A stretch of DNA of 64,000 nucleotides from Burkholderiales bacterium (GTDB taxonomy: Bacteria > Pseudomonadota > Gammaproteobacteria > Burkholderiales > Usitatibacteraceae), in NCBI GenBank assembly GCA_025359985.1, contig JANYDB010000039.1, forward strand, positions 1 to 64,000, written 5' to 3'. Both the position numbers and the translations under genes were made by a program. Numbering within the stretch: the stretch's first letter is position 1; each line of letters starts with the position of its first letter. Of the stretch, positions 115 to 41,510 are shown piece after piece. The notes beneath the pieces are model-generated. The model was not told the origin of the DNA and made no database searches. It saw nothing but the letters and a program-made list of their open reading frames with translations.

Positions 115-435
115 ACCCTCCATGAAAAGTGGACAGGATCATCAAACTAAATTAAATGATAAATACGAGCAAAAATATCGGCAGAAAAATTTGCCTTGAG
201 ACCATTCCTTGGCGATACGCTGACAATACGCGAACCTATTGTCAGACAAGACAAGTGCCCGTCCAGCTTGCCGTTTAAGCCAAAAAAGCTTGAAAATGCC
301 CGTGGATAGGGGAGTTTATTTTTTTATTTGATGACGGGTCGCAATACAAAAAGTAATTGAAAAAGTATTAAATGTACTGCGGTCGCATATTCCGACTAAA
401 ATAATCTCAACAAAACCTGAGCGGAAAGATATTTC
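115..435. other. Intergenic region upstream of the response regulator
   Basis: No convincing gene is seen. The region is AT-rich and contains a perfect 9-bp inverted repeat (220-245, listed separately). A purine-rich GGAAAG about 8 bases before the ATG at 436 is the likely ribosome binding site of the response regulator. No clear sigma-70 promoter was identified by eye. Confidence 0.6.
220..245. repeat. Perfect 9-bp inverted repeat, possible operator or hairpin
   Basis: CTGACAATA and TATTGTCAG are exact reverse complements separated by 8 bases. The site lies about 190 bp upstream of the response-regulator start, so it may be a binding site for a dimeric regulator, possibly the regulator itself. 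No poly-T tract follows, which argues against a simple terminator. Confidence 0.5.
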
Positions 436-1143
436 ATGAGAATTGCACTGCTTGAAGATGATGTTGATATTGGATCTGCGATGCTGCAATGGCTTGAGGG
501 AGCGGGCCATACAATCCATCATTTTGTGTCAGGCAAAGCGATCGTGCGTGAGGCCGGGCGTGAAAGCTATGATTTATTTATTCTCGATTGGCATGTGCCC
601 GATCTTTCAGGAGAAGAAGTGCTTAAGTGGCTGCGTGAAAAACAGCAATCCACCACGCCGGTTTTATTTGCAACCAGTCGCGATTCTGAAGAAGACATTG
701 TTTCCGCGCTGACTAACGGCGCAGATGACTACATGATCAAGCCCGTGCGTCGTCTGGAATTGCTGGCACGGGTAGAAGCGTTATTGAGGCGCGCGCGCCC
801 GAAAGCGGCAGAAACTGATGCAGTTGAGATCGCGTCTTATCGGATTGATGTGGTTAATCGCTTGGTCAATTTTGATGGCAATGATGTTGAAATGACCGAT
901 AAAGAATACGACCTCACATTGTTTTTGTTTAGAAATATAGGTCGTTTATTATCCCGGGGCCACATTTCTGAAAGTGTCTGGGGCCGTAGTGCCGAGGTTC
1001 AGTCGCGTACGGTCGATACGCATATCAGCCGAATCCGTAAGAAACTTGAATTGGGATCAGAGCGCGGTATAAGGCTGACGCCAGTCTACAATTTTGGTTA
1101 CCGCCTTGAGCGCGTTACGGTTGCCGACAAGCCTGCTATTTAG
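436..1143 (+). CDS. OmpR/PhoB-family response regulator
   Basis: A 235-residue two-domain regulator. The receiver domain (about 1-120) has the acidic cluster E7-D8-D9, the phosphoacceptor D51 in FILDWHVPD, and the conserved lysine K102 in IKP. The C-terminal part (about 130-230) is a winged-helix DNA-binding domain ending in the family motif VYNFGYRLE. The length is typical of the OmpR family. The likely partner is the CHASE2 histidine kinase encoded at 2981; a secreted LysM-FecR protein gene lies between them on the same strand. A strong hairpin directly after the stop suggests that transcription is modulated between the regulator and the downstream genes. Targets are unknown. Confidence 0.93.
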   Translation: MRIALLEDDVDIGSAMLQWLEGAGHTIHHFVSGKAIVREAGRESYDLFILDWHVPDLSGEEVLKWLREKQQSTTPVLFATSRDSEEDIVSALTNGADDYMIKPVRRLELLARVEALLRRARPKAAETDAVEIASYRIDVVNRLVNFDGNDVEMTDKEYDLTLFLFRNIGRLLSRGHISESVWGRSAEVQSRTVDTHISRIRKKLELGSERGIRLTPVYNFGYRLERVTVADKPAI

Positions 1144-1144
1144 C

Positions 1145-1177
1145 GGCTACCGGCATCGCGTACCGATGCCGGTAGCC
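1145..1177 (+). terminator. Strong hairpin directly after the response-regulator stop
   Basis: A perfect 14-bp stem (GGCTACCGGCATCG with its complement) and a 5-base loop start two bases after the TAG. No T-tract follows, so it may be an mRNA 3'-end stabiliser or partial attenuator rather than a classical rho-independent terminator. Confidence 0.6.
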
Positions 1178-1256
1178 AGATTGATATACAAGTGTCCGTT
1201 GAGTGCATCCATTGCCGTCGGCTATTAAGATAATTGTTCTTTCAATGGAAACCCCC

Positions 1257-11559: not shown

Positions 11560-13659
11560 ATGACTTCCAAGCATCCTGAAACTATTAAAGTTGATACCTT
11601 GCCTCCCCCCGACAAGGGTTGGCGTTCGCAAAAATGGTGCGTACGTGCTGCCGTCGCGACGCTACTGTTGTTGACGTTAATCGTGGTGATCATCATTTTT
11701 TTTGATTGGAACTTATTGCGTGGCCCGATAGCGCAAAGGGTGACTGCCTTAACCGGCAGAAGCTTTGCGATTAATGGCGATCTGACGGTGCACCTTTCGT
11801 TACACCCACGCATCATCGCCAATGATATTGTGCTCGGCAATAAGGCCGACAGCGATGAGCCGAATATGGCTCAGATCAAGCGCCTCGATTTCAGGGTTAA
11901 TCTCTTGGAGCTCCTGGCTGGTCATTTGGTATTGCCGGAAATAGCGTTGTCCGAGCCTCGTGTTTGGCTCGAAATAGATAGCGATGGCGCGCCTAACTGG
12001 ATTTTTAACCCAAAGCGCAAGCCAATGGAATTTCCAGAGATTGGTGCGCTGACGATTGATCAAGGTAGTGCGACCTATCGCGATCTAAAACACCATACTG
12101 ACCTCGTGATGGCTGTCAAAACCTTGGCCGATGGCACCGATAAATCTGATTTTCGCCTTGAGGTTACGGGCAAAGGACGTTTTAAAGGTATGCCTATGTC
12201 ACTACAGGGACGAGGTGGGGCGCTATTGAGTTTGCGCGATGCCGCCCATCCTTATCCGCTGCAGGTAGCAGCCATGATGGGGACTACCAAAGCGAGTATT
12301 AATGGCACGCTGGTTGACCCCTTGAATCTCAAATCCGAGAAGCTGAACTTCAAACTGGAAGGCAGCGATTTGGCGTTACTGTTTCCGATTATCGGTGTGC
12401 CGATTCCGCCAACACCTGCTTACAAACTCGCCGGGTTCCTGGATCATGCAGACCAGGTATGGACTTTTCGCCGTTTTAAAGGCGTCGTGGGACAAAGTGA
12501 TATCAGTGGTGATTTTGCGGTTGATCATAGCCAGCAGCCGCAAAAAATAACCGCTAATCTGGTTTCGCAAAAACTACTGATGCGTGACCTTGGCGGTTTC
12601 ATTGGCGCGGATCGTGGCACCCGGCGCAGCGAGGCACCACCACCCAGCGACAGGCTGATGCCGACCGAGCCTTTCAGCCTAGAAAAAATACAGGCTGCAG
12701 ACATGGATGTGGCTTTTCGCGGTGAACACATCGTGACTGAATCTATGCCAATTGAGAAAATGAGTGCTCATCTTCTTGTCAACAACGGAGTGCTAAAACT
12801 CAAGCCGCTCGATTTCTGGATGGCCGGCGGACATCTGGTGTCGCAAATAGAAATGGACGGTAGCCAGAAAAATATCATCACCCGTGCAGATATTGTCGCC
12901 AAAGGACTTAGGCTCGATCAGATGTTTCCAAATTCCAAGCTCGCCTCGGCTGATACGGGCACTATGGGTGGCCGTGCCAAGTTGGTAGGCAAGGGTAATT
13001 CAATGGCGCAATTACTTGGCTCGGCAAACGGCGAAGCAGCGTTGATTATGGACGGTGGCTCGGTTGGTGAATTATCGCTGCGGCTCGCGAACCTCGATAT
13101 TGCGAATTCGCTCAGGCTGCTTTTTGCCGGCGATAAACAAACGCCGATTGGTTGCATGGTCGGCAATTTTAAAGCAGTTAACGGCGATTTCATCGTGCAG
13201 GATTTGGTGCTTGATACGCCTAAGGTTAATGTGACCGGCAGTGGCGATATCAATTTTATTGATGAATCGCTACACATCAGGCTAGTGTCTCGTTCGAAAG
13301 GTTTTAGCCTGGCAAGTTTACGTGGCCCGGTCAACATTGCGGGCACATTCAAGAACCCAGCGGTGCGGCCTGAATTAGGCGGTGCCATTATTCGCGGCGG
13401 TCTCGCAGCTGCACTGGGTGCGGCCACGGCTGGCATTGGAGCGTTAATACCGCTGCTTGATTTTGGTAAAAATAAGGACAGCAATTGTGCCGCGCTTATC
13501 AGTCAGGCCAAATCCGACGCGGGCGTGAAAACAAGTGATATAACGTCCAAGGCAAAAAAGTCTACAGCACCTCCCGCAGCATCGAATAAATCCGTAAAGC
13601 CGAGGGCGACTGGCAAATCTGCACCGTCGAAAGAATCCATATCACAACCAGCACCGTAG
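11560..13659 (+). CDS. AsmA family protein
   Basis: A 699-residue protein with one N-terminal transmembrane helix (about 30-50) followed by WNLLRGPIAQRVTALTGRSF, typical of AsmA proteins, and a long periplasmic beta-rich region. The C-terminal third has the usual AsmA features (NLDIANSLRLLF, GDINFIDESLHIRL, SLRGPVNIAGTFKNP). Known AsmA-like proteins are inner-membrane-anchored bridges that influence phospholipid or outer-membrane homeostasis. The last ~45 residues are a Lys/Ser/Ala/Pro-rich low-complexity tail that may be disordered. It is a single gene or the head of a unit with the esterase 100 bp downstream. Confidence 0.88.
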   Translation: MTSKHPETIKVDTLPPPDKGWRSQKWCVRAAVATLLLLTLIVVIIIFFDWNLLRGPIAQRVTALTGRSFAINGDLTVHLSLHPRIIANDIVLGNKADSDEPNMAQIKRLDFRVNLLELLAGHLVLPEIALSEPRVWLEIDSDGAPNWIFNPKRKPMEFPEIGALTIDQGSATYRDLKHHTDLVMAVKTLADGTDKSDFRLEVTGKGRFKGMPMSLQGRGGALLSLRDAAHPYPLQVAAMMGTTKASINGTLVDPLNLKSEKLNFKLEGSDLALLFPIIGVPIPPTPAYKLAGFLDHADQVWTFRRFKGVVGQSDISGDFAVDHSQQPQKITANLVSQKLLMRDLGGFIGADRGTRRSEAPPPSDRLMPTEPFSLEKIQAADMDVAFRGEHIVTESMPIEKMSAHLLVNNGVLKLKPLDFWMAGGHLVSQIEMDGSQKNIITRADIVAKGLRLDQMFPNSKLASADTGTMGGRAKLVGKGNSMAQLLGSANGEAALIMDGGSVGELSLRLANLDIANSLRLLFAGDKQTPIGCMVGNFKAVNGDFIVQDLVLDTPKVNVTGSGDINFIDESLHIRLVSRSKGFSLASLRGPVNIAGTFKNPAVRPELGGAIIRGGLAAALGAATAGIGALIPLLDFGKNKDSNCAALISQAKSDAGVKTSDITSKAKKSTAPPAASNKSVKPRATGKSAPSKESISQPAP

Positions 13660-31405: not shown

Positions 31406-31993
31406 GTGGAGCCGTTAAATTCATCCAGTCAGGTAAGTGAATTGTTGGCCGAAATAAAGGCCGGAAACGCAGGCGACAGCAGCGCATCAGCGCGACTGTA
31501 TTCATTGTTGTATCCCGAGATAAAACGGCTTGCCCGTTCCCGTTTGTACGCGGCGGGTGGTGTTACCAGCCTCAATACGACCGCCCTGGTTAATGAAGGT
31601 TTTTTACGCATGGCGCAACGAGAAGGGATGGCCGGTGAGTCACGCCTGCAGTTTTTCGCTTATGTAGGCAAAGTATTGCGCTCGGTGGTGCTGGATCATT
31701 TGCGCGCCGAGACTGCCGAGAAACGCGGTGGTAATCAAGTGCAGGTCACACTTTCGCAGGCAGAGTCGATTGCAGTTGCAGGGCGTGACAACTGGTTTTT
31801 GCTTGATCTGGCGTTAGAGCAGCTCAAAGACATGGATTACGCGTTGTATGAGTTGGTTGAGCTGCGCTATTTTGCGGGGTTGACCGTGAGCGAAATTGCG
31901 GCTTTGCGTAAGGTTTCTACCCGCACTATTGAGCGTGACTGGGTCAAGGCGAAAGCCATACTCGAAGAAATGGTCGAACATGCGCCCGAATAA
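31406..31993 (+). CDS. ECF-type RNA polymerase sigma factor (TIGR02999-like)
   Basis: A 195-residue sigma-70 factor with region 2 (LYSLLYPEIKRLARSRLY, LNTTALVNEGFLRM, YVGKVLRSVVLDHLRA) and region 4 (VELRYFAGLTVSEIAALRKV, STRTIERDWVKAKA). The spacing and the TTALVNE motif match the group usually encoded next to Ser/Thr kinases. The start is GTG. It is followed after 9 bp by a kinase-TPR gene, so the kinase probably controls this sigma factor or is controlled with it; no anti-sigma gene is seen. Its targets may include the exported-protein genes downstream, which is inference. Confidence 0.92.
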   Translation: MEPLNSSSQVSELLAEIKAGNAGDSSASARLYSLLYPEIKRLARSRLYAAGGVTSLNTTALVNEGFLRMAQREGMAGESRLQFFAYVGKVLRSVVLDHLRAETAEKRGGNQVQVTLSQAESIAVAGRDNWFLLDLALEQLKDMDYALYELVELRYFAGLTVSEIAALRKVSTRTIERDWVKAKAILEEMVEHAPE

Positions 31994-32002
31994 AGAGCTG
32001 GT

Positions 32003-35000
32003 GTGAATATTACTGACTGGCAACGCCGTTCGGCACTGTTTGACGAGGTGGTTGATTTGCCAGTAGAGGCGCGCGAAGAATGGCTGGCCGCGCTTGCTAA
32101 AAATGCTCCGCAGCATTTGGCTGCCGTGACAAAAATGCTGCTCGATTACGATCAGACCGAACCTGATCGCACCGCTGCACCGATGATTGGTGGTTTAGGA
32201 ACTGTCGAATTTGAATCCCGCTTGGATTGCGCCACGATGCCTGCAGATATGCAATTAAAATCTGGCGCGCTGATCGGCGCCTGGCGATTAGACCGAAAAA
32301 TTGGCGAAGGCGGCATGGGCTCGGTGTGGTTAGCCGCGCGTCAGGATGGACACTTTAAAGGCAGTGCGGCGATTAAATTTTTACGCACCGGTTCAGGTAA
32401 CACTGAGGTAGTGGAACGTTTTCTGCGCGAACGTCGTCTGCTGGCACGCTTGATTCATCCCGGTATTGCCCGCCTACTGGATGCGGGCACTCATGCGGGC
32501 GAGCCTTATCTGGTAATGGAATACATAGACGGCCAACCCATCACCGCGTGGGCGGCAGCGCATGCGCCACGTGTTGCTGACCGGATTTCACTGATGCTCA
32601 AAGTCTGTCGAGCTGCCGAATACGCACACAGCCAACTGATCGTACATCGCGACTTGAAACCGTCAAATGTGCTGGTAAACCGTATGGGCGAACCATCACT
32701 GCTGGATTTCGGTATTGCCAAGCTCATTGATGCAGCAGATGATGATTACGCGACTGCATTAACCCGCATTACCGGTCGTGGTTTCACTTTGGGCTATTGT
32801 GCGCCGGAGCAGATTACCGGTGAGCCAACGGGTGTGGCGGCTGATGTATTTTCGATGGGCGTGCTGTTGTTTGAATTACTGACCGGTACGCTGCCGTTTC
32901 GGCCCCAACAGGAAGGCCGTGCTGCACTTGAACACGCCATGGTGCATGCAGATGCGCGCAGCATTTCAAAAGCCCTTGACGAAGCTGCTGTATTGCCCGG
33001 CAATTTGCCCAGTAATCGCCCAGTGGATGCAGAGCGCACGAAAGGTGATCTTGAAGCCATTGTGGCCCGTGCGTTGCGCAAAAAACCGGCTGATCGCTAC
33101 CCGACTTTGAGTGCGTTTGCTGATGACCTTGAGCGATGGCTGAATAATTTGCCAGTCGCGGCACGACGCGGGAACTGGCAATACATGACCCTGCTGTGGC
33201 TCAAGCGCAATCGCGCACTGGCCGTCGTCGGGACGGCAGCGTTTATTGCCGTCAGTACCGGTATGGTCACGGCAATCTGGCAAGCTGAACGTGCCAGTGA
33301 AGAGGCATTGCGTGCAGACCAGGAAAAAGAAGTTGCGGTCGAGCAGCGTCGGCGCGCCGAGATCGCCACCGCACAGGCGACTGCCGCCTTGGCCGAAAGC
33401 GATCAGGCGAAGCGTTCCGCGTTGCAGGCCGGGCAACTGGCAGAGCGCAGCGCGTCACTGGCACGGCAGTCTGAACAGACGGCGATGCAAAACGAATTAC
33501 GCTCGCGGCAGGCAGAGGCCGACGCCGCCACATCCAGTCGCAATGCGCAGAAGGAAGCGGCCAAAGCCAAAGCGGTAAATCAGTATCTGGTCACCCTGTT
33601 TGAGAGCGCCGACCCGGAACGTATCAAAGGAGAAAAACTCACGGCTCGCGAATTGCTCGATTCTGGCGCGAAATCACTGACCACACAATTCGCGAATGAC
33701 CCGCAAACATTGGCGGAATTGCAAGCGGTGTTGGGACGGACTTATGTTGGCTTGTCACAGCCGAAAACAGCGATTCCGTTGCTTACCGAAGCGGCTGCAA
33801 CGGTGGCAACAAAATATGGGGATCGCTCAGTCGAGCATGCACGAATTCTCTATTCGCTGGCGCGCGCGGAATCGGAAATTGATAATTTTCCGGAAGCGCA
33901 GAAGCACTATCAAATAGCGCTGGACATACTGGAACCTTTAGACGGGATTGCAAGTGAGACTATTGTTACCGGCAAAACATATCTGGCCCATGCGCTACAA
34001 AAACAGGGGAAGTTCGCCGAAATTGATTCGTTGCTTGCGCCCGTGCGGGCCGCCATCATCGCGCAGCTGGGCGACCAGAGCTGGCTATTCGTCGAGATCG
34101 AAAATGCGCGCGCAGTGGCTCTGTCGGGTCAAGGCAAGATCAATGAAGAACACCGTATTCTGCTGAGTATTGAACCACTTCTAAAAGCACCGCCGCCCGG
34201 CAAACGCGCCGATGCGCTGGTGATCCGTAACAATCTGGCGATTGCTTTTGCGCGCATTGGCAATCTGGCTGAAGCGATTCCGCGAGCCAATGCAGCGGTT
34301 GCGGGCTTTATCGAGCACCTCGGGCCTGACGCCGAGCAAACACTAAAGACAATGTGGTTTTCAGGTGAGCTACTGCGGCAAGCCGGCCGCTATGCGGATT
34401 GCGCAACGCAGTATGAGCGTGTGGCGGAAATCCGGGCGCGGGTTACCGGCGAAACCCATCCACTAACGGTTGATGTGTTTTCAAAAACCGCTTCCTGTGC
34501 ACAACTAACCGGCAATGAAGCGCAGGCGGCGGCCTACACAGCACGTGCGCTGGCAGCGTTGGCGCCCACCGATCAGCCGCCGCAACGCAATGTGCTGCGT
34601 ACTCTGCTGACTTTGCAGCTATATATGCTTGATCGTGCTGACACTCCACGAGCGCGGACTTTGCTGCTGCGAACAAAGGCGCTTGCAGTGGCACTGAATC
34701 TTTCTGCAACCTCACCGGAATCATTATGGATCACGGTCGTTGAGGCTTGCACTGCAGCGCGGGCAGGCGACGTTAAAGCAGCCCTGCGTGGAATGGACGC
34801 GCTATTAGTAAAGGCACCTATGTTCACAAATCTGCCCGCTGTCAGATCGCTGTATGCGTACTTTCTGGTACTGGACGGTCAATTTGAACATGCACAGGCC
34901 GAGATGATTGAAGCCCGCAAGTTGGCCGCATTGCGCATGACGGAAACACACCCTGTTTACCTCACTTTTAATTATGTAGATGCGCTCATTGCTCGACCCA

Positions 35001-35089
35001 AAGAGGGCGCCAGCGCACTACGCGCGCTTGAGACGGGTGCCGGTAGAGCTGCGCGCCTGCCGTTGGCACCGAACTGGTTTGGGCTATGA
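32003..35089 (+). CDS. Membrane Ser/Thr protein kinase with TPR repeats
   Basis: A 1028-residue protein. The kinase domain (about 90-375) has the glycine loop GEGGMGSVW, the lysine in AAIKFL, the catalytic HRDLKPSN (Asp near residue 214) and DFGIAKL. One transmembrane helix follows (about 398-420). Next is an Ala/Glu/Gln-rich coiled coil (about 425-530) and then a C-terminal half made of TPR-like repeats, presumably periplasmic or extracytoplasmic. This domain order is typical of bacterial Pkn kinases co-encoded with ECF sigma factors. The N-terminal ~85 residues contain a small helical region (LFDEVVDLPVEAREEWL) common in this group. The start is GTG, 9 bp after the sigma gene. A very long hairpin lies downstream. 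Confidence 0.92.
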   Translation: MNITDWQRRSALFDEVVDLPVEAREEWLAALAKNAPQHLAAVTKMLLDYDQTEPDRTAAPMIGGLGTVEFESRLDCATMPADMQLKSGALIGAWRLDRKIGEGGMGSVWLAARQDGHFKGSAAIKFLRTGSGNTEVVERFLRERRLLARLIHPGIARLLDAGTHAGEPYLVMEYIDGQPITAWAAAHAPRVADRISLMLKVCRAAEYAHSQLIVHRDLKPSNVLVNRMGEPSLLDFGIAKLIDAADDDYATALTRITGRGFTLGYCAPEQITGEPTGVAADVFSMGVLLFELLTGTLPFRPQQEGRAALEHAMVHADARSISKALDEAAVLPGNLPSNRPVDAERTKGDLEAIVARALRKKPADRYPTLSAFADDLERWLNNLPVAARRGNWQYMTLLWLKRNRALAVVGTAAFIAVSTGMVTAIWQAERASEEALRADQEKEVAVEQRRRAEIATAQATAALAESDQAKRSALQAGQLAERSASLARQSEQTAMQNELRSRQAEADAATSSRNAQKEAAKAKAVNQYLVTLFESADPERIKGEKLTARELLDSGAKSLTTQFANDPQTLAELQAVLGRTYVGLSQPKTAIPLLTEAAATVATKYGDRSVEHARILYSLARAESEIDNFPEAQKHYQIALDILEPLDGIASETIVTGKTYLAHALQKQGKFAEIDSLLAPVRAAIIAQLGDQSWLFVEIENARAVALSGQGKINEEHRILLSIEPLLKAPPPGKRADALVIRNNLAIAFARIGNLAEAIPRANAAVAGFIEHLGPDAEQTLKTMWFSGELLRQAGRYADCATQYERVAEIRARVTGETHPLTVDVFSKTASCAQLTGNEAQAAAYTARALAALAPTDQPPQRNVLRTLLTLQLYMLDRADTPRARTLLLRTKALAVALNLSATSPESLWITVVEACTAARAGDVKAALRGMDALLVKAPMFTNLPAVRSLYAYFLVLDGQFEHAQAEMIEARKLAALRMTETHPVYLTFNYVDALIARPKEGASALRALETGAGRAARLPLAPNWFGL

Positions 35090-35165: not shown

Positions 35166-35232
35166 AAACCCCAGCATTAAAAGGCATCTTGAAGCATTTT
35201 TGCTCCAAGATGCCTGTTAATGCTGGGGTTTT
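35166..35232. terminator. Very long hairpin (31-bp stem, TTTT loop)
   Basis: Two 31-base arms (35166-35196 and 35201-35231) pair with only two mismatches around a 4-base loop. The arms start AAACCCCAGC and end GCTGGGGTTT. It lies 77 bp after the kinase stop and about 100 bp before the next gene. The end T-run supports terminator function on either strand, but the stem is far longer than usual and resembles a mobile palindromic element. Confidence 0.7.
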
Positions 35233-35329
35233 GAAATTTAAATTAATCAACAGAGGTAAATGTCGTACTTTCCAGATGGCCTGCGTCTGATAGGTTGATG
35301 CATATTTCCGCCATCGATTGGGAGAAAAC

Positions 35330-36319
35330 ATGAAGCCTGTCAACATGATTGAAATCGCCAAACTCGGGTTGGCCACCATGAGCTTAATTACGGCAAGTTG
35401 GGCGGTGTCAGCCCAAAGCCAGCTCACCCCGCCAACTCCACTCAAGCCGCCCACACCGGCTGGCACGGGTGACAGCACCACCCCTCTTTCAACCGGGCTT
35501 GCCAAGCCCAACGCGCCACTACAGATGGACAAATTATCGACGAATAATCTACGTCCGCAAAATATAAAAATTGGTAGCGAAACAATCGCTTTGCACATGC
35601 TGCCCGATACACAGATTTTCAAGGGTGCTTCCGGCAGAACCATAAGCGTGGCACGTTTGAAGCAATTGCAGGCGTTGCTGGACCCCAGCCTGCCTGCCGA
35701 AATTAAAGCGGGTGGCCCGATTGTTAAGGCGCAGCCTGGTCAGTCGCTCGCCAGCATGGCAGCGCTGCCTGCCAATACGCGTATCACGCTCGCCAATGGC
35801 CATATCGCCAGTGCAGGGCAGTTGAACGAAATTAAAGGCTTAATCAACAAGATGAACCAGCCGCGCACCATTACGCCGGTGCCAATAGTGCTGGCCAATT
35901 CGCAGGCGCGGCTAACAGTAGGCCCTACGCTTACGTTGGCAGACGCATTAAAGCGGCCTGCCAGTGAACCTGTCAGGGTGGGTAACTACACTTATACAGC
36001 TGAACAATTGCGGCTTATTGACAGTAAGCTTCGCGCCAGCAAGGTTGATCCACGCGGCCTGGTTGAACGGGAGCGAGGCAGTGGCACGTCAGTTACCAAT
36101 AAACCAAACCTTAATGTGATTCCTTCTGGCCCTCAAATAAAAATAGCTCGTGGCTCATCCATGGTTTCAATGCTGGATAAGCCGGATAGCGCGGTGCTGG
36201 TTTCCGCCAATGGCAAAGTCACCACGGTCGGCGCACTCAAACAATATTTGCGCGAAAAAAACCTGACGGCTGCGCAATTTGATGCGCAGAAAAATGCCAA
36301 AGTACGGCCCACAAAATAA
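35330..36319 (+). CDS. Exported protein with four ~45-residue internal repeats
   Basis: A 329-residue protein of unknown function. The signal peptide ends near AVSA|QSQ (residue 28). A Pro/Thr-rich linker follows (about 33-75). Four copies of a ~45-residue module then occur at about 79-121, 132-176, 192-238 and 270-311. Each has a hydrophobic L..M/A..L-P, a variable loop with Gly, then T/S-x-A/V..LK..L (for example ISVARLKQLQALL and VTTVGALKQYL). The ORF track begins at 35318; I use ATG 35330, which has GGGAG 6 bases upstream. I do not recognise a family. It is the first of seven consecutive genes for exported proteins. Confidence 0.8.
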   Translation: MKPVNMIEIAKLGLATMSLITASWAVSAQSQLTPPTPLKPPTPAGTGDSTTPLSTGLAKPNAPLQMDKLSTNNLRPQNIKIGSETIALHMLPDTQIFKGASGRTISVARLKQLQALLDPSLPAEIKAGGPIVKAQPGQSLASMAALPANTRITLANGHIASAGQLNEIKGLINKMNQPRTITPVPIVLANSQARLTVGPTLTLADALKRPASEPVRVGNYTYTAEQLRLIDSKLRASKVDPRGLVERERGSGTSVTNKPNLNVIPSGPQIKIARGSSMVSMLDKPDSAVLVSANGKVTTVGALKQYLREKNLTAAQFDAQKNAKVRPTK

Positions 36320-36353: not shown

Positions 36354-38507
36354 ATGAATCAGTTTTCAAAATTAATGCGCATTGAGCATTCGCGTTTCCG
36401 GTATTTCATGACACGCATATCGAGTTCATTTCTGCTGGCGTTGGGCTTCAGCTTTGCCTCGATGCCGCCTGCGCATGCCATGGGTGCAGTTGAAGCCATT
36501 GAAAAGGTATGCAATGCCACCAATGGATTATGCGGACCTGATTTTTCCAGTTTGTCTACACACTGTTTTCATGCCGGAAAAGGTGACGAGGTTAGCTGCG
36601 CTATTGCCATCATCTCAGCCATCGCTGGAGTCGGCCAAGTCGGCAGTGCAATCGACACCATCGTCATGTGCGCAAAAGACGTCAAAAATTTAAATGCCAT
36701 TCAGGGTAAATGTAAACAAGCGCTGGATGGACTAGGCCTGCCCGCAGACAAATACAACGAGGCGATTGTTATTGTCAAACGCTGTGCGGCGATCAAAGAC
36801 GTGGATGACACCATCATGTGCGCCGATTATTTACTGAATTCATCCTTCGCGGCCGACGCCGGTGTGACGGTTCCGTCGTGGGTTTATTTTTTGTTTGACA
36901 TATATGACGACATTAAAGCCAAAGACTATTGGGGCTTGGTTTATCATGTCGGTGCCACGATAGCCTGTATCGCTGCGGAATATTTCAGCGGCCTGGATGT
37001 TTGCAGTTTCCTGAAAGATCTTGTTGCCCTAGGGGTGGCTATCTATGACGCGGCAGGTGCCGTGGTCGATTTTATTAGCGACACCTTTAGCTCCGAAAGT
37101 AGCAACATGCCGCCGAGCGATTACTTCGCTCAGAATTGGGCACCTCAGGTAGAAGAGTACGCACAAAACATGTTCCAGTACCGCACAAACGGTTATTGGG
37201 GCGGGCCGCACACCGGTCCTGAAGGTATGCGGGATAACTGCTACGACTATTTCCACGGTCACACCGTTGGATCTGCAAATGCCAATAGTGTTTGTGATGC
37301 GATGCTCTCGGGTAGCGGCGGCAGCGGTGGCGCCTTTATTCAAAAGGGATTTTCGCAAATGGTGGCGCGCCGTGGCGCACAATATTTGTTACCGAATCTG
37401 GTCAGGGCCGCCGTCAAGGCAAAACATGCCGAACTCAATGCCAAAGGTATAAAAGTAGCGTTGGAGGACGTTTCCGCGATATACGGTTATTTTTTCAACG
37501 GGCCGGTTAATCCCGACGCATACAGTGCAACCTTTAAATATTACCAACCGGATAATTGGCCCAAAGGAAGCGTTGCCGCCTTAGCTCACGATATGCTCAC
37601 CGCGGCAACGGATTTGCCCGCTTACCGGCCGCTCACCGTTCAGGACGGCGAGACGCTGGCCAAGAGGAAGCTGGCTGAAGCTGAAAGTAAAGTCGACATT
37701 TCGGCCCAGGCGCTGATTAAAATTAAAAATGCGCAAGTGACAGCAGCCAAGACGGCCGAAGCAAATAAAAAAAATGCGGAGAGTATAGCCGCATGGTTAG
37801 CCAAACCCCTGAATGAATTGATCGCGGGCTGCAAGCACAAGAAAGATCCTAAGACAGTTTGCGAGGCGGGTGTGAAGGCGTTGTATGAAGATTGTAGCGC
37901 GCAGTTTTTCGCCTTCGCTAACACGCATCCGTTAGTGGATGATTTTGATAACTCTGCCAGCAAGCCGCTTGTAAAACAACGCGCCGAAGATTACGACAAA
38001 TGTATCGCATCAATACGCGGCTACATCAAATCCTTACCCGATTATAAAAACGCCGATATTCACGACAAGATAAGCGATCACTTGTCCGCTGCCGCTCCTA
38101 CCGTATCGAATCTGCCGCCTGCCAACAAAGTGACGCTGAAGCCATCAACCAACCTGCCGTCGGGAACAGCGATAACGGGCAATGCGACCTCTACCCACAG
38201 CCCAACATCGCTCGGCGGCGCTATCGGCGCAAGCAGCGGCAACGCATTCAACGCGCAGAATTTAGTTGGCAAGACGCCACCTGCAGCTCTGACATCACTT
38301 GCGCCGCCATTGTCGTTGTCATCGCCGAAAAGCGATGAGGCTGACCCCGCATTGAAGCACTGCAAGCCATATGAGAAACGTAAAGATGAGGCTATTTGCA
38401 GTAACGCAAGCGGATTCAGAGCCTGCCAAGCGTTGGTCAATGCGGGCAAGGCCAAGTCCTGCCGATTGAAAGGCTCGGCGGAGATTTATATGAAACCGGC
38501 TCGCTAG
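36354..38507 (+). CDS. Large cysteine-rich exported protein, unknown family
   Basis: A 717-residue protein. The signal peptide ends near PAHA|MG (residue 42). By my count the mature part has 20 cysteines, clustered in the first ~230 and last ~230 residues. Two hydrophobic stretches (about 80-100, AIAIISAIAGVGQVGSAIDT; and about 200-245) could insert into a membrane. The middle has an Asp/Tyr/Trp-rich segment and a coiled-coil-like Lys/Ala-rich region (about 440-490). A Ser/Thr/Pro-rich linker (about 590-665) precedes a short cysteine-containing tail. The ribosome binding site GAGGG fits ATG 36354. No homologue family is recognised. It is preceded by the repeat protein with a 34-bp gap. Confidence 0.78.
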   Translation: MNQFSKLMRIEHSRFRYFMTRISSSFLLALGFSFASMPPAHAMGAVEAIEKVCNATNGLCGPDFSSLSTHCFHAGKGDEVSCAIAIISAIAGVGQVGSAIDTIVMCAKDVKNLNAIQGKCKQALDGLGLPADKYNEAIVIVKRCAAIKDVDDTIMCADYLLNSSFAADAGVTVPSWVYFLFDIYDDIKAKDYWGLVYHVGATIACIAAEYFSGLDVCSFLKDLVALGVAIYDAAGAVVDFISDTFSSESSNMPPSDYFAQNWAPQVEEYAQNMFQYRTNGYWGGPHTGPEGMRDNCYDYFHGHTVGSANANSVCDAMLSGSGGSGGAFIQKGFSQMVARRGAQYLLPNLVRAAVKAKHAELNAKGIKVALEDVSAIYGYFFNGPVNPDAYSATFKYYQPDNWPKGSVAALAHDMLTAATDLPAYRPLTVQDGETLAKRKLAEAESKVDISAQALIKIKNAQVTAAKTAEANKKNAESIAAWLAKPLNELIAGCKHKKDPKTVCEAGVKALYEDCSAQFFAFANTHPLVDDFDNSASKPLVKQRAEDYDKCIASIRGYIKSLPDYKNADIHDKISDHLSAAAPTVSNLPPANKVTLKPSTNLPSGTAITGNATSTHSPTSLGGAIGASSGNAFNAQNLVGKTPPAALTSLAPPLSLSSPKSDEADPALKHCKPYEKRKDEAICSNASGFRACQALVNAGKAKSCRLKGSAEIYMKPAR

Positions 38508-38628
38508 TAAATCAGAGAAGACGATGAGGGATGAGGCATTGTCGGTATGTATAACCAGCTTAAATCGTTGCGTCAAAAACTTAAATTTTTATGGGCTGTT
38601 TTTTAAAATTAAATCACGGAGAAACAAC

Positions 38629-39222
38629 ATGAAGCATCGCAAATTAATCACACTCATTGCTGGGGCTGTCATTTCGGGGAGCGCTATGCAGGGCCAAGCA
38701 CAGCAGAGCCAGCTTGGTGCGCCCGGGGCGGCGCGGTCACAGTCCAACACCCTAGCGCCACCACCCGCCTTGAAGGTGCCGGATACTAGCGATACCAATC
38801 GGCCGATTATTCGTATTCCCGGCAAGCCTAACGTGGATCTGACCATCATCACCTCCGGCGAGCGCGCTCAAGATGTATATTTCGCGACCATCAAGAATAT
38901 TGGTACGAGCACGTCCGGGGTGTCCAATCTTTATTGCGCTGCAAATATATCAACACCTGGCGGCGGTGGCTATGTGATCGAGCGTGTGTATGTCGCGAAG
39001 CCTCTGGCGCCTAATGCCATTCATGTTTTCACTTGCGACTTTAAGGCCAGCAAAGGCGAGTTTAATTCCTCCCAAGGCGCAGTCAAGCCTGGCGAAAAAA
39101 TATTTGATGTGCATTTCATTATTAATAATCACAAACAGATTGTTGAGACCAATTACAACAACAACGATGTACACGTAAAGCCCGGTATTTTTGGCCAGCC
39201 GGTCAAGCCTGGCAAAGATTGA
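38629..39222 (+). CDS. Exported CARDB-like beta-sandwich protein
   Basis: A 197-residue protein with a signal peptide (LITLIAGAVISGSAMQGQA|QQSQ). A Pro/Ser-rich linker is followed by one beta-rich domain (about 80-190) with VDLTIIT, YFATIKNIGTSTSG and ETNYNNNDVHV. This pattern resembles CARDB/adhesion-type Ig-like domains, where a conserved NN motif ends the domain. The ORF track starts at 38524, but ATG 38629 has CGGAG 8 bases upstream and begins the signal peptide. Binding partner unknown. Its QSQL after the signal peptide also occurs in the repeat protein two genes upstream. Confidence 0.75.
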   Translation: MKHRKLITLIAGAVISGSAMQGQAQQSQLGAPGAARSQSNTLAPPPALKVPDTSDTNRPIIRIPGKPNVDLTIITSGERAQDVYFATIKNIGTSTSGVSNLYCAANISTPGGGGYVIERVYVAKPLAPNAIHVFTCDFKASKGEFNSSQGAVKPGEKIFDVHFIINNHKQIVETNYNNNDVHVKPGIFGQPVKPGKD

Positions 39223-39437: not shown

Positions 39438-40028
39438 ATGTATCAAAACGCAATAATGGCGGTGAAAAGGTTGGCGTTGGCGGGCGTCTGGTTGATGGTC
39501 GTCACCGAGGGATTAAGCTCTTCATGGGTAGCCGCGCAGATGCCGTTCGGGTTAAAACAAATGCCATCGATCAATACGGAAATCCCATCCGCCGCCACTT
39601 CTTCATTACTTACACCCTCGCTAAAAAAATCGAGCAAACAACCGGCCATTGAGGTGAGATCACTGGTCTTAAAGCCCGGTGAATTTCCACCGGCGAGCCC
39701 TGCTCAATACAAAGTGGCTTTTGAATGCACCATCCGCAATATTCCGCCACAAACCGATTTCGATCTGTTCCCGCGTTATCGCTGCGATCTGGATAAGGTG
39801 AGAACGGCGGAGGTCAACAGGCTGCCCATTTATCGCATCGATATTTTTCCCTCTGCAGATGGCATCACCACCAAAATCGTGCTCATTGCAAATAAAAACC
39901 CCAAAGATATGACACTGCCAAACCACATTCGTGCCGCGTTGCAGCTTTATCGTGATCAGTCCGCAAAAGAGAGCGTGTCAGTGCTTAAAGATTTTTTTTA
40001 TGCCGATGGCTTGCTGGAAAGCAAATAG
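39438..40028 (+). CDS. Exported hypothetical protein
   Basis: A 196-residue protein with an N-terminal signal peptide (about 1-34, ALAGVWLMVVTEGLSSSWVAA|QM), a Ser/Thr/Pro-rich linker and a mixed alpha/beta domain (about 75-196) with two cysteines (FECTIRN, YRCDLDK). I recognise no family. AAGAAGG upstream of ATG 39438 is a plausible ribosome binding site with rather long spacing. It lies within the exported-protein array, after a 215-bp gap. Confidence 0.7.
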   Translation: MYQNAIMAVKRLALAGVWLMVVTEGLSSSWVAAQMPFGLKQMPSINTEIPSAATSSLLTPSLKKSSKQPAIEVRSLVLKPGEFPPASPAQYKVAFECTIRNIPPQTDFDLFPRYRCDLDKVRTAEVNRLPIYRIDIFPSADGITTKIVLIANKNPKDMTLPNHIRAALQLYRDQSAKESVSVLKDFFYADGLLESK

Positions 40029-40275
40029 AAAATATTTGCCCGCTAAAGATAATCGTTGTCGGTTGTCGCATTTGTGGGTCAGCTTGCGTCTGTGTAGAAG
40101 TGAGGCTTAATCCGACGGAGGCTAGATCGTGCAAGCCGTCAGAAAATCGTTACACATAACCAAGCGGCGTCACTGACGGCGCTGCTGCCAAGTCATAAAT
40201 AGACAGCACAAAATGCCGGCTAATTTTCGGTACGAATCAATATAAATCGAATCATCACCATTAACAGGAGCAGTT

Positions 40276-40722
40276 ATGTACCTAAACCTCAATCGTTTTA
40301 CCGCAGTCCGTTTATTGATGCCATCACTTCTGGCTGCTGCCTTCACCGCCACTTTGGCCGTCACGGCTAGCGCCCAGAATTTGAAGCCTGGCCAATACGA
40401 ATACACCACGAAAACAGAGGTATTCGGCATTTCGATACCGATCAATTTCAAGCAGTGTGTTACGCAAAAGGATGTGGATTCCAACAACGCTTATGTCAAC
40501 AAACAAGGCTTGGACGGTTGTACGCCTCCCGATGTCAAGCGCAAAGGCGGCGATATCACCATTAAATATTCCTGCGCCAAACCAAAGATGACGGGCGAAG
40601 GTAAAGGCACAGTGACGGAGGATACTTTTACGATGGATATGAAAGTCATCCAGCACGATATGGGCGATAGCGTAGTGAAGACCGCACTCACTGCCAAGCG
40701 TCTTGGCGAATGTGCCAAATAA
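40276..40722 (+). CDS. DUF3617 family exported protein
   Basis: A 148-residue exported protein with a signal peptide ending near TASA|QNLKPGQYEYTTKTE. LKPGQYEY and the four conserved cysteines (FKQCVT, LDGCTPP, KYSCAKP, LGECAK) match DUF3617, a periplasmic family of unknown role. AGGAG 8 bases upstream fixes the start. It is followed 17 bp later by the CsgG-family gene. Confidence 0.85.
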   Translation: MYLNLNRFTAVRLLMPSLLAAAFTATLAVTASAQNLKPGQYEYTTKTEVFGISIPINFKQCVTQKDVDSNNAYVNKQGLDGCTPPDVKRKGGDITIKYSCAKPKMTGEGKGTVTEDTFTMDMKVIQHDMGDSVVKTALTAKRLGECAK

Positions 40723-40739
40723 TTTCTGGTGGAGATGAT

Positions 40740-41510
40740 ATGAAATCCCTAAAACAGTTTTTGATCAAAATGTCCTGCGTTGGCACGTTGGCTTTATCCG
40801 GTGTGGCCGCTGTTAGCGCAGCATATGCCGAAGGTAAAGACCCGGTTTCTGACCGTTCATCCACCACTAAAAAATTGGAAAGTCTGGGCAAGGTTGATAT
40901 GGCCACGCGTCCGCTAGTAACAGTGTATGAGGTAACGTCGAATGTGGGCGAGATTGATGCTCGCGCTGCAACGGCGATGTTTACCACCGCATTGGTCAAG
41001 AGCCGTCAATTCCGGGTGCTGGAGCGCAATAAAATCATGGGCGGTGTCGCCAAGGAACGCGAGATGAATCAAAGCGGTGTCAGCTCCGGTAATAGCGCGA
41101 CCCGCCAGATCAAGGGAGCCAATGTTATTTTTGAGGCCACTTTCTCGGAAGCAACCGCGTCCAAAAAAACCTCATCTGGTGGCTTTTCTATTGGAGGTTT
41201 GCAGTTGGGCGGAGGATCGAATCAGGATGAAGTAGGTATGGATGTGCGCGTCCTGTCGGTCGGCACAGGTGAGGTGCTGGACGCCATCAATGTGCGCAAA
41301 GCGGTGGAGTCGAGTCAATCAAGCGTAAGCGGGATTGGTGCGCTGGTGGATACTATTGCGTCGGCTAAAGGCAAGAATTTAAAAGGGTTTACGCCAGACG
41401 CAAATTTCCAGTCAGCACGTAAGGAAAGTATGGATCGCGCATTGCGTGCGTTAATTGAGCAGGCGATTTTTGAGTTGGCCAAGCGTGCCGGTGAGTGGAC
41501 AGATGATTAA
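40740..41510 (+). CDS. CsgG/HfaB-family exported protein
   Basis: A 256-residue protein with a signal peptide (about 1-33, ending SAAYA|EG). The mature part has CsgG-family features: a strand near RPLVTVYEVTSN, FTTALVKSRQFRVLERNKI, an Asp/Gly-rich middle and VGMDVRVLSVGTGEVLDAINVRK. CsgG forms the outer-membrane pore for curli secretion. Here no lipobox Cys is seen, so it is probably periplasmic or anchored differently, and no CsgA/B-like curlin is nearby. ATG 40740 has GGTGGAG just upstream; the ORF track start at 40710 lacks support. It overlaps the next gene by 8 bp. Confidence 0.82.
   Translation: MKSLKQFLIKMSCVGTLALSGVAAVSAAYAEGKDPVSDRSSTTKKLESLGKVDMATRPLVTVYEVTSNVGEIDARAATAMFTTALVKSRQFRVLERNKIMGGVAKEREMNQSGVSSGNSATRQIKGANVIFEATFSEATASKKTSSGGFSIGGLQLGGGSNQDEVGMDVRVLSVGTGEVLDAINVRKAVESSQSSVSGIGALVDTIASAKGKNLKGFTPDANFQSARKESMDRALRALIEQAIFELAKRAGEWTDD

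Follow-up and report, generated by a model that had tools for sequence, protein, structure and literature searches.

Exported repeat proteins that belong to no family are common, and when a gene in the 64,000-nucleotide stretch of DNA analysed here (the window) was described from its letters as encoding an exported protein with four copies of a module of about 45 residues, the questions it raised were whether the repetition is real and, if so, what such a protein might do. Here a syntenic relative, a module model of fair confidence and a conserved promoter-like element back the repeat, and our verdict is that it is a real repeat in a good regulatory setting, with a narrow distribution. The features discussed below are collected in Table 1.

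Table 1. Positions in the window of the repeat gene, its modules, the neighbouring genes and the elements between them.
Feature	Position	Strand	Details
ECF sigma factor	31406-31993	+	PF07638, TIGR02999; ECF43-like
Hanks-type Ser/Thr kinase	32003-35089	+	PF00069 1.5e-41, TPR_12 1.7e-17; apparent membrane segment, TPR region
Long hairpin, then T-rich stretch; terminator-like	35166-35232	+	between kinase and repeat genes; z -9.7
ECF-type promoter-like element	35261-35290	+	TGTCGT-N16-GCGTCTG; 39 nt before ATG of repeat gene, after hairpin
Repeat-module protein ORF	35330-36319	+	ATG start, 329 aa; GGGAG ribosome-binding site before ATG
Module 1	35564-35692	+	IKIGSETIALHMLPDTQIFKGASGRTISVARLKQLQALLDPSL; leave-one-out profile 13.2 bits, 0/5000 shuffles
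Module 2	35723-35857	+	VKAQPGQSLASMAALPANTRITLANGHIASAGQLNEIKGLINKMN; leave-one-out profile 21.4 bits, 0/5000 shuffles
Module 3, probable, very diverged	35903-36043	+	QARLTVGPTLTLADALKRPASEPVRVGNYTYTAEQLRLIDSKLRASK; helix-strand-strand-helix order predicted as in other copies
Module 4	36137-36262	+	IKIARGSSMVSMLDKPDSAVLVSANGKVTTVGALKQYLREKN; leave-one-out profile 22.2 bits, 0/5000 shuffles
717-aa exported protein	36354-38507	+	conserved Cys-rich C-terminus; next gene of unit after repeat gene
232-aa exported protein	38524-39222	+	CARDB-like below cut-off (PF07705 E 0.09)
196-aa exported protein	39438-40028	+	by eye similar to L039:6629-7282
Second copy of promoter-like element	40064-40093	+	before DUF3617 gene
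DUF3617 protein	40276-40722	+	PF12276 9e-18
CsgG-family protein	40710-41510	+	PF03783 1.5e-21, 77.2 bits vs cut-off 20.8

The repeat and its inheritance

The residue ranges given for the four copies in the preliminary description follow the numbering from the ATG and match the DNA exactly (35564-36262); an alternative, longer frame of the gene starts with TTG at 35318. The product consists of a signal-like N-terminal segment, a Pro/Thr-rich linker and then the modules, and it appears to be exported, with a mature form of pI 10.5 that contains neither Cys nor Trp. We used composition-preserving shuffles as the measure of chance resemblance. A de novo search of the protein for four similar windows gave a score of 105 (shuffled 34.0, s.d. 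13.4), which none of 150 shuffles reached, and the windows that it chose take in copies 1, 2 and 4, not copy 3. Leave-one-out profiles likewise recovered copies 1, 2 and 4 (Table 1), for which the summed pairwise global scores were z 6.7, 9.1 and 9.0, respectively. Copy 3 was not recovered by its leave-one-out profile (1045 of 5000 shuffles reached its score), and its summed pairwise global score of z 1.5 was reached by 145 of 2000 shuffles. The internal tandem repeat in this exported protein is real at the coordinates of Table 1, and copies 1, 2 and 4 are beyond chance. What stands of the proposed four-copy module is therefore these three, with their significant scores; the sequence score of copy 3 is not significant, but the predicted order of its fold is like that of the others, and it is a plausible, even likely, fourth module, short of proof. 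That there might be no true repeat, only low-complexity drift in a basic, Ala/Leu/Pro-rich exported protein, fits the failure of copy 3 in the leave-one-out test and the modest best single self-alignment, which falls inside the shuffled range (63 against 39.9, s.d. 7.3, with a maximum of 66 in 40 shuffles), but it is disfavoured already by the repeat tests, since the multi-copy score is never reached by shuffling, three copies pass leave-one-out and the cross-profiles described below beat all 5000 shuffles, and we give it hardly any credence.

The repeat gene is present in three of the 28 genomes of the family, in one of them as a decayed copy. A pairwise search of these genomes with the repeat protein matched the decayed copy (in genome G017) and nothing else, and the other relative, in genome G011 of the same genus, came to light when the neighbouring 717-aa protein was used as the query. 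There (locus L039) an exported protein of 268 aa with three modules lies in the same gene order, behind the same kinase gene, its mature form again basic (pI 10.4) and free of Cys. Its three copies were found de novo (z 7.0 and 9.4 at two window lengths). A profile of the modules of our protein scored 14.1 bits against it, where 5000 shuffles gave at most 10.0, and the reverse profile, of the G011 modules against our protein, scored 12.6 bits, where the shuffles gave at most 8.7. Because a relative at the same place has three copies, the repeat architecture is inherited, and the suggestion that the duplication is old agrees with the finding that the G011 protein carries this module at just ~25% identity. 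The copy in G017 has lost its start codon and carries stop codons and a stretch of short tandem repeats, with the text of modules 1 and 3 still recognisable, the GGGAG ribosome-binding site conserved and the promoter motif kept. The short tandem repeat in this decayed gene (L004 about 200-1230, minus strand) is expanded and TTGGCACA-like, and the gene adjoins a broken transposase-like gene.

A full-length profile run over 399 relatives gave credible matches in genomes G000, G011 and G017 only. Pairwise searches of 399 genomes of the order, plasmids and phages, together with a pattern scan of contigs, found no relative of the repeat protein outside the genus. We rejected the full-length-profile matches in G007 and G153 as antisense or ribosomal frames, and a match in G374 (L005) as antisense to another gene; the module-profile matches that we opened in the order proved to be unrelated frames, among them a FlgA-like and a metallo-beta-lactamase-like protein, and the weak full-length-profile matches in G314 and G342 are metallo-beta-lactamase-like proteins that the module profile had brought up already. 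As far as these searches reach, the repeat protein seems to be confined to part of one genus, and distant relatives may have been missed because its sequences diverge fast.

Family and fold of the module

The first reading of the sequence knew of no domain with this pattern, and the libraries agree: the repeat protein belongs to no family in Pfam, NCBIfam or PHROGs, it has no sequence match and no significant fold match in the PDB, and Foldseek returned nothing significant for either the module or the full-length model (best E 1.4 and 0.62). The module thus appears to be undescribed as far as the searched libraries go. SpoA/YscQ was rejected as a relative at E 1.3 only.

We modelled a single module with AlphaFold2 from an alignment of seven modules in which module 2 was the query row. 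The model (pLDDT 80.5, pTM 0.52) has the elements E4-6 H13-17 E24-26 E32-34 H35-48, which predicts, with fair confidence, a beta-alpha-beta-beta-alpha fold. LysM, suggested by the text 'pGqSLasmA', was rejected, the predicted fold not being beta-alpha-alpha-beta. The full-length AlphaFold2 model was made from two sequences, without any module-to-module alignment as input, and is of low confidence (pLDDT 48.5). In it each of the four copies ends with strand, strand and long helix; the short first helix is seen as well in copies 2, 3 and 4. The predicted structures are of similar element order in all four copies, not four different folds.

Regulatory setting and gene cluster

The hallmark of ECF43 sigma factors is a TTA motif, with a phospho-acceptor Thr, in place of DAED (PMC8999054), and they are switched on when a neighbouring kinase phosphorylates a Thr in them, as in the known pairs EcfP/PknT of Vibrio parahaemolyticus and EcfK/PknS of Xanthomonas citri (PMC8999054; PMC13147305). 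The sigma factor encoded upstream of the repeat gene reads NTTA at the DAED position (SLNTTALVNEGFLRMA; compare STTA/QTTA), and with this motif and a Hanks-type kinase as its neighbour it looks, by sequence, like a member of the ECF43 type. By analogy with the known pairs, the kinase would activate it through phosphorylation. The window resembles EcfP-PknT and EcfK-PknS in having a sigma gene beside a kinase with TPRs and TTA replacing DAED; it differs in its predicted targets, which are lineage-specific exported proteins, whereas those of the known pairs are polymyxin resistance or T6SS. It offers, beyond Vibrio and Xanthomonas, an ECF43-like sigma/kinase pair with a candidate regulon and a predicted promoter.

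The promoter-like motif was noticed by comparing the window with the G011 locus, in a first form TGTCG-N18-CGTCTGA that was refined to TGTCGY-N16-GCGTCTK. The window has exact matches to the refined motif at 35261 and 40064, against none in 100 shuffles, a count that overstates the surprise, as the motif received its definition afterwards and its first sites are not independent. Four exact sites lie in L039 (4825, 7253, 11756 and 15954) and precede the repeat gene, the sigma gene, a 217-aa gene and the DUF3617 gene. The decayed copy in G017 has one site upstream (L004 1272-1300), which was found, like that at 40064, with the first form of the motif. The related loci L071, L152 and L153 have two sites each, found with a relaxed form before the motif had its final wording, and L071 has three further sites with a single mismatch beside gene starts. 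Upstream of the window's own sigma gene there is no site within 2 mismatches. Since the motif recurs through the cluster and related loci, the ECF43-type sigma factor probably controls the repeat gene directly, and TGTCGY-N16-GCGTCTK is probably the sequence that this factor targets.

A counterpart of the hairpin in Table 1 occurs at the same place in G011 (L039 about 11786-11880, z -12.1) with a different sequence, so that the kinase and repeat genes are parted in both genomes by very stable long hairpins that are unlike in sequence.

The neighbours of the repeat gene are apparently exported as well. The cluster can be recognised in G011 (L039), in L071, a metagenome-assembled genome (MAG) carrying the label Rhodoferax, and in two complete genomes, L152 and L153, that belong to the family. 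We saw no gene for a repeat-module protein at L071, L152 or L153, and L152 has another exported protein, 157 aa long, in the position behind the kinase gene. Because these clusters appear to do without it, the repeat gene is dispensable for the cluster's role. The 717-aa protein has no Pfam match, and its family was found, in the searches made, only in genomes of the same bacterial family and in the MAG L071; in its alignment the L152 row covers the C-terminal part only. The apparently kinase/ECF-controlled cluster also includes a CsgG-family protein in which we saw no lipobox by eye, the signal ending AAYA-EGKDP with no Cys there.

Possible functions of the repeat protein

The repeat protein has the look of a lineage-specific component of the envelope that is as yet uncharacterised. 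Strongly basic, and with a number of similar small domains joined by loose linkers, it is most simply read as binding weakly and multivalently in the envelope, and we tentatively propose that this exported, basic, multi-module protein, made under a kinase-activated ECF43 sigma factor, acts as a multivalent envelope adaptor. The transmembrane Hanks-type kinase would sense an envelope condition and then phosphorylate the neighbouring ECF43-type sigma factor, which in its phosphorylated form would read the TGTCGY-N16-GCGTCTK promoters of the cluster, leading to production of a protein with a signal peptide, a Pro/Thr-rich linker and three or four beta-alpha-beta-beta-alpha modules on loose linkers. 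In the envelope or on the surface, each module might make a weak contact with an anionic polymer or with a partner from the cluster, and several such contacts would jointly hold the assembly. Of this proposal, the data show the repeat, its inheritance, the order of the genes and the motif that they share; export, the fold of the module and the regulation are inferred, with a full-length prediction of low confidence, and the binding function and the partner are a guess.

Another way to view the protein is as a cargo or accessory of CsgG-type outer-membrane export that builds an extracellular matrix in the manner of curli subunits. A CsgG-family gene lies in the clusters of the window, G011 and L071 (by Pfam) and of L152 and L153 (by sequence), and the repeat protein is itself exported and repetitive. 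We consider this unlikely, however, because the CsgG-family protein of the cluster has no lipobox by eye, the modules are unlike curlin repeats, PF03783 also includes proteins unrelated to curli, and some clusters with the CsgG gene have no repeat gene. The protein might instead feed back on the kinase, binding its periplasmic TPR region and switching it off or on: the two genes adjoin, the repeat protein would be exported to the compartment of the TPR region, and it is apparently under the sigma factor that the kinase should activate. Kinases of the same layout in L071, L152 and L153 have no repeat protein as a neighbour, however, and we regard such feedback as improbable.

The protein could also be a multivalent extracytoplasmic sensor or binder made of a new small repeat domain with a CBS-like half-fold, under a kinase-activated ECF43 sigma factor that reads TGTCGY-N16-GCGTCTK, though we think it decidedly unlikely that all of this holds together. 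The modules could also be minimal CBS-like motifs in pairs, so that the four copies would form two ligand-sensing, Bateman-type units outside the cytoplasm. The predicted beta-alpha-beta-beta-alpha order agrees with this, there is a weak by-eye likeness at the T/S-x-x-D/E-L end, and CBS chains are prominent among the VIA-align matches of the 49-residue module model, where they account for 8 of the 19 entries listed at Z 2 or above (the best being 3i8n_A, with Z 3.6, 45 residues and 2.5 A). A Z under 4 for so small a model may, however, reflect only a common arrangement, and the odd copy number of the G011 relative (three) does not suit pairing. Moreover, hhalign of the modules against ten CBS motifs from the same genome gave a probability of 1.4% over 13 columns, and Pfam gives no CBS match, so CBS (PF00571) homology is not supported, and we hold the paired arrangement to be very improbable. 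The modules share with the CBS motif a predicted order of elements and a weak structural overlap, but they are shorter, exported and without similarity by profile or Pfam. Because the profile comparison lends no support to kinship, we report the module as having a CBS-like order of elements and not as a CBS domain; it is an unclassified small module, and its structure should be easy to solve.
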